Assembly (NCBI GenBank): GCA_015063805.1
Contig: SVTK01000002.1
Location: 108,644 to 172,643 of the forward strand
From: Oscillospiraceae bacterium
GTDB lineage: Bacteria > Bacillota > Clostridia > Oscillospirales > CAG-272
Reading direction: 5' to 3'
DNA length: 64,000 nucleotides
Both the position numbers and the translations under genes were made by a program. The notes beneath the pieces were generated by a model. It saw nothing but the letters and a program-made list of their open reading frames with translations, made no database searches and was not told the origin of the DNA. Shown one piece after another: positions 42,849 through 51,841 of this stretch (position 1 is its first letter; every line of letters starts with the position of its first letter).

Positions 42849-44489
42849 TCATGCGGGAGAGTCGGTGTCAATCCCTTTCCGGTTCCGTCTCCAAAACTGC
42901 GGGACGAGATAACTTCCCAAACACACCGCTGTCCCGGCCATACAGAGCCAAATCAGCAGGTTCCCCACCTGTGTGTAAAGGGTAAGGCGGGAATTGCACT
43001 CCACTTCAGCCGTAATTTGCCCTTGAGTAAGGGGCTCCAGGTCGCCCAACACCGTTCCCCGGGGGGTGATCACCGCGGAAATCCCCGTATTGGCGGCACG
43101 AATCACACTGCGTCGGGTTTCTACCGCACGCAGGACTGCCTGGCCGTGGTGCTGACGGAGGGCAGCAGAATCGGAAAACCAGTAGTCATTGGTGGAGACA
43201 GCCAGTACCTCTGCCCCCTGCCGCACGCTGTCCAGCGACAGCATCTCATAGATGGAGTCAAAGCAGATCAGCGATCCCACCTTCACGCCGGCGGCAGAAT
43301 GCACCGCGGCCTCCTTTCCCGCCGCAAGGTCGCCCCCCTCCGCCATCTGCAGCTGCGCCAAAGGCGGACAGACCGCACGGACAAGGTCGGCCATGGGCAG
43401 GTACTCCCCAAAAGGCACCAGGTGCCGCTTGGAATAAACGGTACCGTCCACGCCCCCATCGGGGGTGACGGTGACAACCGAATTCATCATTCCCTCAGGG
43501 GAAGCGGTAAAGCAGCCTACCAGCAAAGTAACGCCGTTCTCGGCGGCCAGGGCTTCGATATATTCCACCATCCACGGATACTTATGCAAAGTGTAAGGAA
43601 TGGTGCTTTCGGGCCACACCACCAGCTCAGCCCCCTGTGCGGCGGCCTCTCGGGTGAGGACCACATAGGCCTGCAGGGTCTCAGCCATGGCTTCCCCGCT
43701 CCATTTCACCGAGGTAGAAATGTTCCCCTGCGCAGCCGAAACGGTGATTGTGTCCCGATCCTCCGCTGCCGCTTCGTCCAAAAGGAAAAGGCCGCTTCCC
43801 ACCGCGAAGTTGACGCCGAATACCAAAAGGGCGGCGGTCAACCGTCGACCGGCGGCAGCAGGTTCCAGCAAAGCCGCGGCAATAAGCAGATTCACCGTCA
43901 GCAGCAGAAAGGTGATCAGATAACTCCCCAAGAGGGAAACCGTCTGGATCACGGGAAGCCAACGCACCTGTCCCAGGGCCAGCCGTCCCCAGGGAACGCC
44001 AATCCAGGTTTGGGTCTGCATCCACTCGAAAATGCACCAAACGGCGGCAATCAAGGGAATGCGCAGAGCGGGCAGACGGCGGCAGATCGGCGAACGGCAT
44101 ACCAGCCCGATCAGAGGGAATGCCGCCGCAAAAATTCCCCCGTGGAGCAGCGCCAGCCCGAAGCAAGCCACCGCCACCACCGCCGCCGCGGCGGCGGTGG
44201 GCATCCCGGTAAATTCCAGGGGATATAGATAGAAAAACCAGTGGTAGACGATGGCCTGAAAAACAAAGCAATACAAAAATCCCCAGGCATACATCCGACG
44301 CAAGGAGACGGGCTTCCCGTTCTTCCCTTCAGCCGAGATCAGCCGCAGGAGCACCGCCCCCATGGGCACAAGGGACACCCACTCCAGGGGCGCAAGGATG
44401 GGCCATATCAGCACTGCCCCCGTCGTAACAGCACTCAAAAGCAACAGCAGCGCCGGGCACCGGCGAACGGCATTTTTCATCCACATCAT
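42849..44489 (-). CDS. lnt: Apolipoprotein N-acyltransferase
   Basis: Multi-TM N-terminus + nitrilase fold: ELVVWPESTIPY, GSLICFDSIYEMLS. Confidence 0.92.
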   Translation of the reverse strand: MMWMKNAVRRCPALLLLLSAVTTGAVLIWPILAPLEWVSLVPMGAVLLRLISAEGKNGKPVSLRRMYAWGFLYCFVFQAIVYHWFFYLYPLEFTGMPTAAAAAVVAVACFGLALLHGGIFAAAFPLIGLVCRSPICRRLPALRIPLIAAVWCIFEWMQTQTWIGVPWGRLALGQVRWLPVIQTVSLLGSYLITFLLLTVNLLIAAALLEPAAAGRRLTAALLVFGVNFAVGSGLFLLDEAAAEDRDTITVSAAQGNISTSVKWSGEAMAETLQAYVVLTREAAAQGAELVVWPESTIPYTLHKYPWMVEYIEALAAENGVTLLVGCFTASPEGMMNSVVTVTPDGGVDGTVYSKRHLVPFGEYLPMADLVRAVCPPLAQLQMAEGGDLAAGKEAAVHSAAGVKVGSLICFDSIYEMLSLDSVRQGAEVLAVSTNDYWFSDSAALRQHHGQAVLRAVETRRSVIRAANTGISAVITPRGTVLGDLEPLTQGQITAEVECNSRLTLYTQVGNLLIWLCMAGTAVCLGSYLVPQFWRRNRKGIDTDSPA

Positions 44490-45445
44490 GAGAAATCGCG
44501 CACAAACCAGATCTTGTCGGGGGAAAGTCCTACTTCACGGCCCCGGAGATAGGACAGTGGTCCATCCTCCGCCGAGAAAGCAAAGCGGAGACGGTACGCG
44601 TAAAGAGCCTGGTACTTATACCCTTTCCGCTTATCCTCACGGTTTACCCCGTATTTGCCATCCCCCAGCAGGGGATGGCCGATGTGGGCAAGGTGGGCGC
44701 GGATCTGATGGGTGCGTCCGGTGATCAGCTCCACCTCCAGCAACGAAGCATCGTCCCGGGCAGCCAGGGTGACATAGCGGGTGATGATCTCCTTTGCCCC
44801 CCGGCGGCGCTCATCGGTAACGCTGACCGTATTGGCGGCGCTGTCCTTGATGAGCCAGCCGTGCAAAGTTGCCTCGGGCTTCTTGGGACGGCCGTGCACC
44901 GCACAGAGATAGAACTTGTCAATCTCTCCGCAGCGGATTTTTTCGTTCATAATCCGCAGAGCCTCGGCATTTTTCGCGGCCAGCACCAACCCGCCCGTAT
45001 TGCGGTCGATGCGGTTGCAGAGAGCGGGGGCAAAGGACTGCTCGGCGGCGGGATCATATTCCCCTTTTTGATGGAGGTAGGCCTGGATGTGCAGAATGAG
45101 GGTGTTCTCTCCCCCCTCGTCATCCTGATGTACCAGCACGCCGGGACGCTTGTTGAGCACCAGGATGTTCTCATCCTCATAGCAAATTTCCAGCTTGGGC
45201 TTGATGCGGTCGAGCGCCTCCGTGTCCTCCTCGGGCATCCCGAAAAACTCATCCCGGATGAAGAGCTGCAGGGTGTCCCCCGCGCAAAGGATCTCGTTCG
45301 GCGCGGTGCGGGCGCGGTTGCGCTTGATTTTCTTGGTGCGGATATATTTATACATCAGCGACTGGGGAAGTCCCCGCAGGGCCTTGGCTAGAAACTTATC
45401 CAGCCGCTGTCCTGCGTCGTTCTTGCCGATGACCAGTTCTCGCAT
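44486..45445 (-). CDS. RluA family pseudouridine synthase
   Basis: NRIDRNTGGLVLAAKN; GRTHQIRAHLAHIGHPLLGD; N-terminal S4-like domain. Confidence 0.94.
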   Translation of the reverse strand: MRELVIGKNDAGQRLDKFLAKALRGLPQSLMYKYIRTKKIKRNRARTAPNEILCAGDTLQLFIRDEFFGMPEEDTEALDRIKPKLEICYEDENILVLNKRPGVLVHQDDEGGENTLILHIQAYLHQKGEYDPAAEQSFAPALCNRIDRNTGGLVLAAKNAEALRIMNEKIRCGEIDKFYLCAVHGRPKKPEATLHGWLIKDSAANTVSVTDERRRGAKEIITRYVTLAARDDASLLEVELITGRTHQIRAHLAHIGHPLLGDGKYGVNREDKRKGYKYQALYAYRLRFAFSAEDGPLSYLRGREVGLSPDKIWFVRDFS

Positions 45446-45475
45446 AAAATTTCTCCTTTTGCCGCAAGCGACACG

Positions 45476-45528: not shown

Positions 45529-46158
45529 TTATTTGGTTCCGAAGATACGGTCGCCCGCATCGCCCAGGCCGGGAACGATATAGGCGTGGTCGTTGAGACA
45601 CTCGTCCAGACTGGCGGTGTAGATATCCACATCGGGGTGATCTGCCATGACCTTGGCAACGCCCTCGGGAGCGGCCACCAGACACATCAGGCGAATATTA
45701 CGGCAACCCTTTTCCTTCAGCATCCGCAGGGCGTCGCTGGAGGAACCGCCGGTGGCCAGCATGGGATCCACCAAAATACAGATGCGCTCCTCAATGTCAA
45801 AGGGAAGCTTGCAGTAATACTCCACAGGCTGATGGGTATCGGGATCACGGTAAAGGCCAATATGACCAACCTTAGCCACAGGAATCAGGCTAAGAAGTCC
45901 GTCCACCATGCCCAGGCCCGCACGGAGAATAGGGATGATGGCCAACTTCTTGCCCGCGATCATTTTTGCCTTCATTTTGGTCAGGGGCGTTTCAATGGTA
46001 ACCTCCTCCAGGGGAAGGTCACGGGTCAGCTCGTAGCCCATCAGCATGGCAATTTCATTGAGCAGTTCGCGGAAATCCTTCGATCCGGTGCGCTTGCTGC
46101 GCATGATCGACAGCTTATGGGTAATCAGCGGATGATCGATGACATGAAGTTCGCTCAT
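45529..46158 (-). CDS. upp: Uracil phosphoribosyltransferase
   Basis: [53 protein letters not shown]. Confidence 0.97.
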
Positions 46159-46230: not shown

Positions 46231-46334
46231 GAGGATTTCACAAAAAACGGCGAGGAATTCACATTTTTCTCTTTATTTTTTCCCCATTTGCTGATAAAAT
46301 ATAAGAAAACGATGAAATGCGCAAAGGAGTCACC

Positions 46335-47660
46335 ATGTCCGTCACCGCAGGAATCTACACCTTGGGCTGCAAGGTCAATCAATACGAAAGCGAGGCCATC
46401 GCCGAGGGGCTGGCGGCAGAGGGGATCACCCTTCGTCCCCCTGATGAGGCCTGCACCCTCTACGTCATCAACACCTGCACCGTTACTGCCGAGAGCGACC
46501 GGAAGGCACGCCAGTTCATTCGCCGGGCTCTTGGCCACAACCCCGATGCCTTTGTCCTGGTCACCGGGTGTCTGGCCCAGGTGGATGCGGCACAGATTGC
46601 CGCCATCCCCGGGGTGGACTACATCTGCGGCAGCCGAAACAAGATGTCGGTCATTGCCGCGGCACGGGAACTGCTTGCCCGGGGACAGAAGAACCCTGCC
46701 CCCGTACTGGCCGTTCCCTCACTGGAGGATGCCCCCTTTGAGCCTATGCACATCACCCGCTTTGACCGTACCCGCGCCTATGTCAAGATTGAGGATGGGT
46801 GTGAGAGTCGATGTGCCTATTGCATCATTCCTCGGGCAAGGGGAAAAATCTGCTCCAAGGCCCCCGCTGATGTGCTGGCCCAGGTGCGCGCCCTGGCCGA
46901 AGGCGGGTGCCGCGAGGTGGTGCTCACCGGCATCGAGACCTCTGCCTACGGGCGGGATCTTGGGGACTACGGTCTGGCTGAACTCCTACGGGATCTGGAC
47001 AGAGAAAGCGGAATCGGCCGCATTCGCCTGGGCTCTCTTGACCCCGCCCTGATCCGCCCCGACTTTGTGGAGAAGATTGCGGCTCTGCCCACCCTCGCCC
47101 CCCACTTTCATCTTTCCCTGCAGAGCGGAGCCGATCACGTCCTGCGCCTGATGCGCCGCCGTTACTCCGCTGAGATGGCCTACGCCGCAGTGGAGCGTCT
47201 CCGCGCCGCTTTTCCCCGGCTGGGGCTCACCGCCGATGTGATCGTGGGCTTCCCAGGGGAGACCGAGGAGGATTTCCGGGAAAGCGCAGATTTCCTGCGC
47301 CGTGCCCGTTTCCTTGATGCTCATATTTTCGCCTATTCCCGCCGTCCCGGCACCGAAGCAGCCGAGATGGACGGACAGATTGACGAGGCGGTGAAGCGCC
47401 GTCGTTCGGCCGAACTGATCGCCGCGCAGGCAGAGCTTCATGCCGTTCTGCTGGATGATGTCGTTGCCGCCGCAGAGCCTGTACCCGTCCTCTTTGAGAC
47501 CCGCCACGGCAACCGCTTCCGCGGACACACCCCCACATTTTACGAGGTGGAGGTTATCTCCCCCGATATTGATCTGCGGGGAACTGAGCGAATCGTTCTC
47601 CCCACCGGTCATGACGGCGAGCGGCTGTCCGCTGACCTCCTTCCCTGTCCCAATCGCTGA
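46335..47660 (+). CDS. mtaB: tRNA (N6-threonylcarbamoyladenosine37-C2)-methylthiotransferase MtaB
   Basis: TLGCKVNQYESEAIAEGL; radical SAM CESRCAYCIIPRARG; TRAM-like C-term. Confidence 0.95.
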   Translation: MSVTAGIYTLGCKVNQYESEAIAEGLAAEGITLRPPDEACTLYVINTCTVTAESDRKARQFIRRALGHNPDAFVLVTGCLAQVDAAQIAAIPGVDYICGSRNKMSVIAAARELLARGQKNPAPVLAVPSLEDAPFEPMHITRFDRTRAYVKIEDGCESRCAYCIIPRARGKICSKAPADVLAQVRALAEGGCREVVLTGIETSAYGRDLGDYGLAELLRDLDRESGIGRIRLGSLDPALIRPDFVEKIAALPTLAPHFHLSLQSGADHVLRLMRRRYSAEMAYAAVERLRAAFPRLGLTADVIVGFPGETEEDFRESADFLRRARFLDAHIFAYSRRPGTEAAEMDGQIDEAVKRRRSAELIAAQAELHAVLLDDVVAAAEPVPVLFETRHGNRFRGHTPTFYEVEVISPDIDLRGTERIVLPTGHDGERLSADLLPCPNR

Positions 47661-47686
47661 AAATTCTCCACGAAAGGATGCCATCC

Positions 47687-50569
47687 ATGCGATCCTGTCT
47701 TTATTTTCTCCCCTTCCCTCATGATCCGGTGAGAGAATGTCTGCACAAGCTCCCCTCGCTTTCCTCCGCCTGTCAGGTACAGCTGATCCTGGAATTGCAG
47801 GTTGATGCGGTCTATCCCGCTTCTGCCATTGCTGAGGTCTTGGGGAATTGCTGCGGCAAACCCATACCCTCGCTCAACTTGACCGAGGACACCTGCTGTA
47901 TCCCCTTAGCCGCTTTTCCTCATGGGGATGCGCGACTGCTTTTGGCAGCGGCAGGCGTGGACGCAGCGGTGCAATGCCGCCCCCTGCTGATCCTGCGGGG
48001 GGCCGATGAGGTACAATACCGCCAAGTGCGAGACCGCCTTGCCGCCACTTTGCCGCGTGAACTCCCGGTCGATGCGGGAGAGGGGTTCACCCAACTCCCG
48101 CCGGATGAACTCATCGCCCGGGGGAAAGCGCTCGGGCTTGCCCTGCCGGAGAATTGTCTTCTGATCATCGCTGACTACTACCGTGCCGCCGAGCATCGGG
48201 ACCCCACGCCGGAGGAGCTGCTCATCCTGGATGCCGCCTATCGCGGAGCGAGTGCCGATGCCGCCGTCTGCGCCCCCATCACCTTCACCACCGACGATCC
48301 CCGCTGTCACGCTGCCTATGCCGACCTCATGGAGAAGCGGCGTGCCCTCTCCCCCGAGGCCAACGCTCCCGCCACCCTTGGGGAACTGGCCAACCTCGCC
48401 GCACACTATCTTGCCGCCCACAGCGGCCATACTCCCGTCCCAAGGCATACTCTTCTCGCAAATCCCCGGGATGCCGCCTGGCAGATGGCGGCGTTGGGGA
48501 CTTCTCCCGTCCTCGGTTTTACCGACCGCAGAAGCGAGAACACCGCCCTTTATAGCGGTACCCCCATTGCCTGTTCCCTCCCGACCCCCGAGGACCGTCT
48601 TCTTTGGGTAGAGGCCCCGCAAAATAATACCCAAGCTCTCGAAGCCCTCTTCCACTCCCCCGCCGCCTCCCTGATCCGCCGCAGTCTTCCCGTGCCGTCC
48701 ATGGGGCTGATCCCCGCCCTGGGCCGATTGCTGGGCAGTTCCGGCCTTGGCCTTTGTCTCTCCGTTTCCGAGGACGTCCCACCGACCAAGCTTCTGCAAA
48801 ATGAGGCCCCCGGTGTGCTTCTGCTCTGCGATCCCCGAGGCGGGCGAGCCATTCCCGATGCCCTGCGGAACGCCGGTCTGCGCTTCCGTCTGATCGCCGC
48901 GGTGGAGAAAGCACCGTTCTTCCGTACCGCCAACAATCGCCTGCGCTTCCCTGCGGCTATGCTCGCGCCCCGTCCCGCTATCACGGCATCGGTCAGCGCG
49001 CCCTATACTGCAGAGCCTGCCGCTCAGGTGCATCCCCTTGCCGCCCTCACCCATGACCTGCAAACACCCACCGCGCAGGGGATGGACGGTTTTGATCCCC
49101 GCACCGCTCCCGTGCTGGCCCAATCCCCCACATCCGCTGTATACTGCAAAGAGCGTGTCCTTGCGGCTTTGGCCTGTACCCCCGCCGGAGGCGTCTTCAG
49201 CAGCGTTCAAAACGCCGCTCTGGCCTTGATTTTCCGTCTGACCGCACAAGGGGCATCACCCGAGAAAATCACCCTGGCTGTCACCGTAGAAACACCGCCG
49301 ATTGGAGAAAATCCCACCGCGGCAGGCCGTGTCATTGCGGCGCTCCTTGCCCTGCACACGGTTCAGGTGGAGCTGGGTATTCACAGCGAGCCCGCCGAAT
49401 TTGCGGCGGGAGACGTCCTCTCTATCCGTCTGAGCGCATCTGCGCCTGCCCCGGCTCCCCGTTCTGCCCGAACTCCAGCCCGACACCTTTGGCTGGCCGT
49501 GCCATGCTCTGTCGCTCCTCATCTCAACGGCCAGCGAGCCGTTCTGGCTGCTGCACAGCGTCACGCCGCAGCAGGCGGATTCCTCATTCCCACCGAGCAG
49601 ATTTCTCCTCTTGCAGCAGCACTCCGTGCCGCCCTCTATGCGGACTGTTCCCTGCGCACCGATGCATCCCCGGATATCTTGCAAACACCGCTGTCCGGAG
49701 GGATGCTCTTCGCCTCGGACGCGCCGCCGACACCTACGGAAGGGATACAATGGATTCCCTTTGCCGAATTATGCCCCCTCGGTGAAAATGCGGTGATAGC
49801 CGGAGATGCCGTCCTGCCTTTGGCGCAGGCTCTCCCGGCCATGCGGGGGGACCTGCCCGTTCCGCCGCCCGACTACGAGATCGCTCCGTCGCTGCCCCGC
49901 ACCTCCTGCCGCCATGCGCCTCGGCCCCGGGTAATTATTCCCGCTTGTACCGACGCTGCAGTGCATCTGGCACAAGCCGTGGCAAAAATGGGAGGAGAAC
50001 CTCTGTACCTGCCCTTCCGTGCTGATACCGCAGATGCGGCGAAACAAAGCATCACCGCCATCGCAGACAGCATGGAAAAAGGACACATTCTGCTTCTCGG
50101 TTGCAGTGAAGCCGTGATGCGCGCGCTTCTGGCACATCCCCGCTTCGCCCAGGCGCTCTCTGCCTTCCGCGCCGCAGACGGGCTTGTCTGTGTCTGGGGC
50201 GGAGCCTTCTCCGCTTGTCTGGCCCATGGAATCTTTTCCCCCGAAGGCAAACCGGTGGCCACGGCACCTCTCCTGGGACAGAGGATGCTTTGCTCCCATC
50301 ATCTGCCTGCAAAATCTCCCTGGACCGCTCCTTTCCCTGCCATGCCGGATGAAACCGTAATCCTTGACCGTGATCCGCGCTGTCCCGTTTTCTCCGCAGC
50401 ACAGAGGCACCAGCTGGCCGAACTCGGCTGCATCGCCGCTCACGCCGCAGGCACCCCCGACGGCTGTCCCGCCGTTACCGCACTGACCACCGCCGACGGC
50501 GGTGTGCTGGGACTTGTTTCCCCGCCCACCCCGACCCGGTTGACCACCGCCCTGGAATATTTCCGCTGA
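47687..50569 (+). CDS. PurL (phosphoribosylformylglycinamidine synthase)-like protein, apparently catalytically degenerate
   Basis: Colinear by-eye similarity to long-form PurL: EHRDPTPEELLILDAAY linker, VFSSVQNAALALIFRLTAQGASPEKITL, GRVIAALLALHTVQVELGI, C-terminal class-I GATase-like domain; catalytic motifs missing. Confidence 0.6.
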   Translation: MRSCLYFLPFPHDPVRECLHKLPSLSSACQVQLILELQVDAVYPASAIAEVLGNCCGKPIPSLNLTEDTCCIPLAAFPHGDARLLLAAAGVDAAVQCRPLLILRGADEVQYRQVRDRLAATLPRELPVDAGEGFTQLPPDELIARGKALGLALPENCLLIIADYYRAAEHRDPTPEELLILDAAYRGASADAAVCAPITFTTDDPRCHAAYADLMEKRRALSPEANAPATLGELANLAAHYLAAHSGHTPVPRHTLLANPRDAAWQMAALGTSPVLGFTDRRSENTALYSGTPIACSLPTPEDRLLWVEAPQNNTQALEALFHSPAASLIRRSLPVPSMGLIPALGRLLGSSGLGLCLSVSEDVPPTKLLQNEAPGVLLLCDPRGGRAIPDALRNAGLRFRLIAAVEKAPFFRTANNRLRFPAAMLAPRPAITASVSAPYTAEPAAQVHPLAALTHDLQTPTAQGMDGFDPRTAPVLAQSPTSAVYCKERVLAALACTPAGGVFSSVQNAALALIFRLTAQGASPEKITLAVTVETPPIGENPTAAGRVIAALLALHTVQVELGIHSEPAEFAAGDVLSIRLSASAPAPAPRSARTPARHLWLAVPCSVAPHLNGQRAVLAAAQRHAAAGGFLIPTEQISPLAAALRAALYADCSLRTDASPDILQTPLSGGMLFASDAPPTPTEGIQWIPFAELCPLGENAVIAGDAVLPLAQALPAMRGDLPVPPPDYEIAPSLPRTSCRHAPRPRVIIPACTDAAVHLAQAVAKMGGEPLYLPFRADTADAAKQSITAIADSMEKGHILLLGCSEAVMRALLAHPRFAQALSAFRAADGLVCVWGGAFSACLAHGIFSPEGKPVATAPLLGQRMLCSHHLPAKSPWTAPFPAMPDETVILDRDPRCPVFSAAQRHQLAELGCIAAHAAGTPDGCPAVTALTTADGGVLGLVSPPTPTRLTTALEYFR

Positions 50570-51016: not shown

Positions 51017-51841
51017 ATGATCTACGAAACCATTACCCTCTCCCCCACCCCTGCGACGCTTACCGCCTATGCCTTCACTGCCACAGGGGACTGCCATACG
51101 CCTCTGCGCCGCGCAGTGGTGATCTGTCCCGGCGGCGGCTACCGCTTTCTCTCGGCCAGAGAGGCTGAACCCATTGCCGAGTACTTTCTCGGCGCCGGCC
51201 TGAACGTCTTTATTCTCCGCTACACCGTGGGAGAAGGCGCCCGGGATTATGCTCCCCTGATTCAGGCATCCCTTGCCATCAAGCATATCCGCGAGCACGC
51301 AGAATACTACCACATTGATCCCCGCTATGTCTACACCTGCGGCTTCTCGGCCGGGGGACATCTGGCCGGCTGGGCGGGAACACAATGGAATCTGCCCCTG
51401 CTGAAGCCCTATCTGGGGGATGCCCCCGAAGGCATCAACCGCCCCACGGGCATGATCCTCTCCTATCCCGTCATCTCCGCCGGTGCCATGGCTCACCGCG
51501 GGTCCTTCAACCATCTTCTGGGCAGAGCCACCGACGGAACCGAGCCCGAGCTGGATGCTTTTTCGCTGGAAAAGCAGGTGGGCCCCCATACCTGCCCCGC
51601 CTTCATCTGGCATACCTTCACCGACGAAACTGTGCCTGTACAAAACTCTCTGCTCATGGCTGAGGCCATGACGGCGGCGGGGATTCCCTTTGAGCTCCAC
51701 ATTTACCCCGAAGGCCCCCACGGTCTTGCCCGTGCCAACGAAGAGACCGCCAACGGCAAACCCGATCATAACAACCCACATCTGCAGGATTGGATCGATC
51801 TTGCCGTCCGCTGGATCAAAGACTTCAACTACGGCGAATAA
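51017..51841 (+). CDS. Alpha/beta hydrolase (acetyl-esterase-like)
   Basis: VVICPGGGYRFLSAREAEPIAEYFLGAGLNVFILRYTVG; CGFSAGGHLAG nucleophile elbow; GPHGLA. Confidence 0.9.
   Translation: MIYETITLSPTPATLTAYAFTATGDCHTPLRRAVVICPGGGYRFLSAREAEPIAEYFLGAGLNVFILRYTVGEGARDYAPLIQASLAIKHIREHAEYYHIDPRYVYTCGFSAGGHLAGWAGTQWNLPLLKPYLGDAPEGINRPTGMILSYPVISAGAMAHRGSFNHLLGRATDGTEPELDAFSLEKQVGPHTCPAFIWHTFTDETVPVQNSLLMAEAMTAAGIPFELHIYPEGPHGLARANEETANGKPDHNNPHLQDWIDLAVRWIKDFNYGE

Follow-up and report, generated by a model that had tools for sequence, protein, structure and literature searches.

A PurL-derived pseudoenzyme downstream of mtaB in one family of Oscillospirales and its putative non-catalytic role

The gene located downstream of mtaB in the window (the whole 64,000-nucleotide stretch of DNA from an Oscillospiraceae bacterium analysed here) encodes a PurL-derived pseudoenzyme: it descends from PurL, has lost active-site residues, retains an intact ORF under selection, and coexists with an active paralogue encoded elsewhere in the genome. 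The best overall explanation, to which we assign a probability of about 0.72, is that this protein arose from an ancestral mtaB-linked PurL and would now perform a non-catalytic, protein-binding role, with MtaB as the likeliest partner. The components of this explanation differ in strength: the pseudoenzyme origin and the selection on the gene are highly probable, a non-catalytic role independent of purine synthesis is probable, and the assignment of MtaB as the binding partner is tentative. We use the name psPurL for the shrunken, motif-less PurL-like proteins, of about 390-1,014 aa, to which the window protein belongs. The relevant part of the window has the following organization:

44486..45448, minus strand: RluD-like pseudouridine synthase, divergent neighbour, present in 41/47 psPurL loci
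45529..46158, minus strand: upp, uracil phosphoribosyltransferase, divergent neighbour, beside mtaB in 29/47 psPurL loci
46317..47660, plus strand: mtaB, tRNA t6A37 methylthiotransferase, 447 aa; ORF, operon partner upstream of psPurL
47687..50569, plus strand: psPurL, predicted catalytically dead PurL derivative, 960 aa; Shine-Dalgarno-like AAAGGA, profile homology
47687..48085, plus strand: N-terminal region of about 130-133 aa, in the position of the PurS-like domain of PurL; own homology not demonstrated
48086..48427, plus strand: FGAR-AT linker-like domain (aa 134-247), the best-conserved part of psPurL
48584..49711, plus strand: remnant of the FGAM synthetase (AIRS/AIRS_C) core (about aa 300-675), with FGAR/ATP loops deleted and without GGKDSMSG
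49913..50566, plus strand: remnant of the glutaminase (GATase) domain (aa 743-960), detected only in the window's genus
50198..50200, plus strand: codon of Gly838, which aligns with the catalytic Cys of GICNGFQAL

Homology to PurL and the loss of both active sites

The plus-strand reading frame is intact and extends without interruption from 47678 (963 aa) to its stop codon at 50569. The preferred start is the ATG at 47687, which yields 960 aa, has AAAGGA upstream and lies 26 bp after the mtaB stop; a preliminary description of this DNA had chosen the same start, which stands, but its length of 963 aa belongs to the start at 47678. A homologue of the mtaB product in one genome (G027), which is fused to psPurL, matches TIGR01579 (MtaB).

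Judged by sequence comparison, the window ORF encodes a real, distant PurL homologue, for which the signal is weak in single-sequence searches and decisive with profiles. A Pfam scan of the window protein produced no family match, and the NCBIfam model TIGR01857 (FGAM synthase) was matched with 16.6 bits (E = 0.0011) over aa 748-852 only, which falls short of the curated cut-off of 1,057 bits. A tblastn search against the canonical PurLs of relatives gave E-values of 1e-6 to 1e-4 over aa about 120-250. Among the psPurL members scanned, scores against TIGR01857 stay below 25 bits or no family model is hit at all, which makes it easy to call these proteins hypothetical or to mislabel them purL. 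When three same-genus proteins were compared with four canonical PurLs using hhalign, 785 columns aligned in order (probability 99.4, E = 6.1e-22), with query columns 139-956 matching PurL 162-1198, that is, the linker, synthetase and GATase regions; a comparison of 39 relatives with the mtaB-linked PurLs reached a probability of 100 and E = 5.9e-53 over 642 columns. A PDB search initiated with a 37-sequence profile retrieved only PurLs below E = 1e-6, and the next hits were SelD and ThiL, members of the same superfamily. Two PDB matches to Mediator subunit 4 from a single-sequence search were dismissed as chance, the 37-sequence profile giving PurL instead. An AlphaFold model built from two sequences has a mean pLDDT of 36, a low confidence at which it is not usable as a model; Foldseek run with it placed PurL at ranks 1-7 (top E = 5.6e-4), which might be taken as weak support for a PurL fold. 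The PurL-like identity proposed in the preliminary description is thus borne out by profile-profile comparison. Its further proposal that the protein is full-length is borne out only from about aa 131 to the C-terminus; for the N-terminal 130 aa, hhalign against the PurS-like domain of PurL did not demonstrate homology (probability 0.7%).

With long-form PurL (TIGR01857; Pfam FGAR-AT_linker, AIRS, AIRS_C and GATase_5; domain layout in PMC3815217), psPurL shares ancestry and the linker-synthetase-glutaminase order; it differs in size (960 aa as opposed to about 1,240 aa), in having no catalytic motif and in the deletion of the FGAR/ATP loops. The surviving parts of psPurL are the linker domain, in which F134, Y165, R171-D-P, E177-L, L181-D182, D213 and P228 are conserved, and portions of the synthetase core. 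The motifs HCRH, ETHNHP, GGKDS and GGFS are kept in 0/52 psPurLs compared with 52/52 canonical PurLs drawn from this family and its order. This count applies to the complete HCRHTTF motif at the end of the linker (0/52 against 52/52), the deleted FGAR/ATP loop segment that contains ETHNHP (motif kept in 0/52 psPurLs) and GGKDSMSG (0/52 psPurLs); more generally, nearly all psPurLs have either lost or rewritten the segments ETHNHP...GGAIRD, TTAAAGYSSYGNQIGLATG, GGRTGRDGCGG, FDSTIGAG and GGKDSMSG. The catalytic Cys of the glutaminase is replaced by Gly838 in the window protein, by Glu in G002 and by Gly in G001, and both the oxyanion loop GGFSGGDEPDGSGKF and GHSER (His/Glu) are deleted in the three psPurLs that possess a GATase remnant. 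The alignment therefore confirms the loss of both active sites, including the Gly in place of Cys, that had been read from the letters alone. Given that every catalytic motif tested is lost, psPurL is, on this evidence, a descendant of PurL and not a catalytic PurL, and is predicted to be dead with respect to FGAM synthase activity.

Outside the window's genus, a GATase remnant was not detected among psPurLs. Genus g3 includes long psPurLs (L085, L090, L091 and L200) with frames of 959-1,014 aa; the C-terminal part of L085, L090 and L091 gave no GATase match.

Linkage to mtaB and the probable origin of psPurL

Profile searches of 297 genomes of the window's family (the genomes in the comparison are mostly MAGs) identified psPurL in about 55 genomes from about 17 genera, with frames spanning about 390-1,014 aa; about three quarters of the family genera sampled show no psPurL. 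Among the matches listed from 297 genomes spread over the order, none outside the window's family is a psPurL, these matches being canonical-length PurLs or apparent fragments thereof. Short PurL frames in L101, L102, L104 and L105 were considered as psPurL candidates and rejected as split or contig-end canonical PurLs. A genome scan with three close sequences returned one same-genus record only, a 'Clostridia bacterium' from sheep colon.

The preliminary description had pointed to the vicinity of mtaB in related genomes as the place to look for orthologues, and they are numerous there: mtaB is located upstream, on the same strand, in 53/53 psPurL loci with a readable upstream gene. This number includes 12/12 loci fetched after the pattern had been seen; a thirteenth locus of the later set stops at a contig end and is left out of the 53. 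In a single MAG, 71% complete, the two genes form one in-frame fusion in which MtaB is followed by about 390 aa of psPurL (L032:2977-5670, G027:C47). A second MtaB fusion suspected in G026, a 1,145-aa frame, proved to be an upstream extension and not psPurL.

The window's genome also encodes a canonical catalytic PurL away from psPurL, in a purF-purM-purH-purD-purL cluster; the preliminary description had suggested a check for such a second copy. Nearly all psPurL genomes in our census possess one catalytic PurL elsewhere, whole or as contig-end fragments; this does not hold for G116, nor for G004 (74%) and G132 (66%), two incomplete MAGs. The sequenced pur-cluster PurLs adjoin purD and usually purH as well. 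Among 36 genera without an obvious psPurL, the slot next to mtaB is occupied by a catalytic full-length PurL in 8, by psPurL in 1 and by other genes in the rest, such that psPurL resides in the same slot as the catalytic mtaB-linked PurL of sister genera. The genomes of the eight genera contain no other full-length PurL, and mtaB is also adjacent to purL in a genome of the outgroup family f8.

A maximum-likelihood tree of 52 catalytic PurLs unites the eight mtaB-linked proteins (support 89) in the vicinity of f8 and f17, and places the PurLs of psPurL genomes, all 33 of them, in a clade of their own (SH-aLRT 100). Ten psPurLs added to the tree (512 shared columns) formed a single clade. A grouping of this clade with the pur-cluster PurLs is rejected (p-AU 0.04), and a grouping with the mtaB-linked PurLs is not (p-AU 0.48); the placement has to be considered soft because the psPurL branches are very long. 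Profiles of mtaB-linked PurLs outscore those of pur-cluster PurLs for 31/39 psPurLs. A PurL from another family (L185; G054, family f20) is nested within the pur-cluster PurL clade of the window's family, which suggests a possible horizontal transfer of that purL.

Because eight genera keep a catalytic PurL in the slot and the psPurL genomes carry theirs elsewhere, the most likely history is that an ancestral mtaB-purL pair lost catalysis after a second PurL took over. Under this scenario, the mtaB-purL pair would be ancestral, with a catalytic PurL; FGAM synthesis would have passed to a second PurL, of separate root, encoded in the pur cluster; the mtaB-linked copy would then have lost both active sites and the large ligand loops, keeping the linker and the synthetase scaffold; and the dead copy would have evolved fast and been inherited vertically, still under purifying selection downstream of mtaB. 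It is seldom possible to follow a retained pseudoenzyme family through its entire history in living relatives. In this case, a single family holds the ancestral slot, the replacement enzyme and the dead derivative, which makes displacement, loss of catalysis and retention directly testable.

Selection on psPurL and its candidate functions

In five close psPurL pairs, dN/dS is well below 1 (0.15-0.36): 0.15 for the window protein and G004 (160 codons), 0.20 for L033-L067, 0.26 for L079-L086, 0.35 for L099-L100 and 0.36 for L091-L092. These values show continuing purifying selection on psPurL; taken with the mtaB-linked orthologues, which are motif-less throughout, they indicate that the gene is not a case of recent decay. 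About 55 psPurL frames are open over 390-1,000 codons despite near-saturating synonymous divergence, and the positions E67, L68, D72, D101, P115, G382, R418 and E422 (L079 numbering) are 92-97% conserved at about 20% overall identity. In pairs for which the MtaB frames are sound, psPurL has a dN about two to five times as high as MtaB, and the excess is usually larger still relative to catalytic PurL. The pattern fits a functional protein under looser constraint and not a pseudogene, and the excess over MtaB, which fits relaxed constraint, counts against our main reading, as does the lack of psPurL in about three quarters of the family genera sampled. Could psPurL then be a slowly dying relic that has no protein-level role and is kept only through its operon with mtaB? 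The high divergence (often 20-30% identity between genera), the repeated truncations (390-1,014 aa), the confinement of the detectable GATase to the window's genus and the absence of psPurL from many genera would all be expected of such a relic; the open frames, the dN/dS values and the highly conserved positions are not, and we consider this explanation unlikely.

Two psPurL genomes bear on the relationship with purine synthesis. No PurL, PurM, PurD or true PurF was detected in G116 (95% complete) or G021 (91%), both of which possess an intact psPurL (L093, G116:C21, and L201, G021:C2, respectively). These organisms are apparent purine auxotrophs or else reflect assembly gaps: the pur genes are clustered, so that a single gap in each MAG could make the pathway look lost. 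If the absence is not an assembly gap, neither the FGAM step nor PurL is the target of psPurL. An intact psPurL in the apparent absence of de novo purine synthesis argues against both a purine sensor and a PurL regulator.

One such possibility is that psPurL associates with catalytic PurL, or with a purine enzyme complex, in a regulatory or structural capacity, by analogy with pseudoenzymes that regulate an active paralogue. Indeed, a catalytic PurL of the pur cluster, complete or fragmentary, is present in nearly all of the psPurL genomes tested, and psPurL keeps the linker and the synthetase scaffold that would be able to pair with it. However, apart from G116 and G021, psPurL is not seen in at least five genera whose catalytic PurL is of the same type, and psPurL adjoins mtaB and not the pur cluster, so that a PurL partner appears improbable.

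Less likely still is the purine-metabolite sensor put forward in the preliminary description, in which psPurL would bind purine nucleotides or FGAR without catalysis. FGAR, ATP and an auxiliary ADP are ligands of the ancestor (PMC3815217), and remnants of AIRS_C-type domains persist; yet the ligand-loop segments are deleted or rewritten in nearly all psPurLs, and the protein persists where PurL, PurM, PurF and PurD appear to be absent. A new enzymatic activity on the AIRS scaffold is the least plausible option: the derived LGxYRAQxEL motif (R 92%, E 97%; compare, e.g., LLGALKAQCEL in catalytic PurLs) would be its signature, but the window's genus retains it only in part (ALHTVQVEL, where Thr replaces the Arg), and no His, Cys or Lys is found among the positions conserved above 90%.

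We therefore return to a retained, exapted pseudoenzyme, a reading already offered in the preliminary description and strengthened by the catalytic PurL elsewhere in the genome, the mtaB-linked orthologues, the motifs gone in all of them and dN/dS below 1; the scaffold role also mentioned there is compatible with our data. A protein-binding role is the best reading because the substrate loops are deleted and the purine pathway is apparently absent in some genomes. Thus, psPurL might be a protein-binding scaffold or a regulatory subunit, with a job no longer dependent on purine synthesis. The invariable proximity of mtaB, together with the single fusion, suggests MtaB as the partner, in which case psPurL might bind MtaB (or its tRNA client) and tune ms2t6A37 formation. 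The linkage by itself is no proof of partnership: the ancestral catalytic PurL was already linked to mtaB, and because the linkage is inherited, MtaB can be proposed as the partner only with reserve. The most specific version, in which a PurL pseudoenzyme was exapted after displacement as a dedicated subunit or regulator of MtaB that outlives purine synthesis and became fused to MtaB in one lineage, is accordingly speculative, and we would put it at about one chance in three.

PurS and PurQ of the split PurLQS complex are non-catalytic or partial FGAM synthase components that exist in nature; psPurL differs from them in lying outside the pur operon, in being devoid of the PurQ catalytic site and in coexisting with a complete long-form PurL. 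To our knowledge, the closest precedent for a PurL put to other work is provided by the vFGARATs of gammaherpesviruses. These pseudo-amidotransferases (the ORF75 family) are PurL homologues with non-metabolic roles (PMC2464709, PMC5811070, PMC3894210). Whereas vFGARATs are viral tegument proteins that act during infection, psPurL is a chromosomal bacterial gene product encoded beside mtaB; it is set apart by this chromosomal setting, and clostridial PurLs are its closest relatives among the proteins compared, the viral members being outside the comparison. The open-licence literature searched contained nothing relevant on a link between MtaB and a PurL-like protein or on a bacterial PurL pseudoenzyme. 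PurL reuse is already known in gammaherpesviruses; a bacterial PurL exaptation beside a tRNA-modifying enzyme would be new.

Other genes in the neighbourhood

The other side of mtaB is less constant than the psPurL side, with upp in 29/47 and the RluD-like gene in 41/47 loci. The only intervening gene seen between mtaB and psPurL is a methyltransferase-like gene (L086:3165-3974, G129:C4). A hydrolase-like gene located 3' of psPurL (window 51017-51841) is conserved in the genus and is present as a tandem duplicate in G001 (L030:3414-5213).
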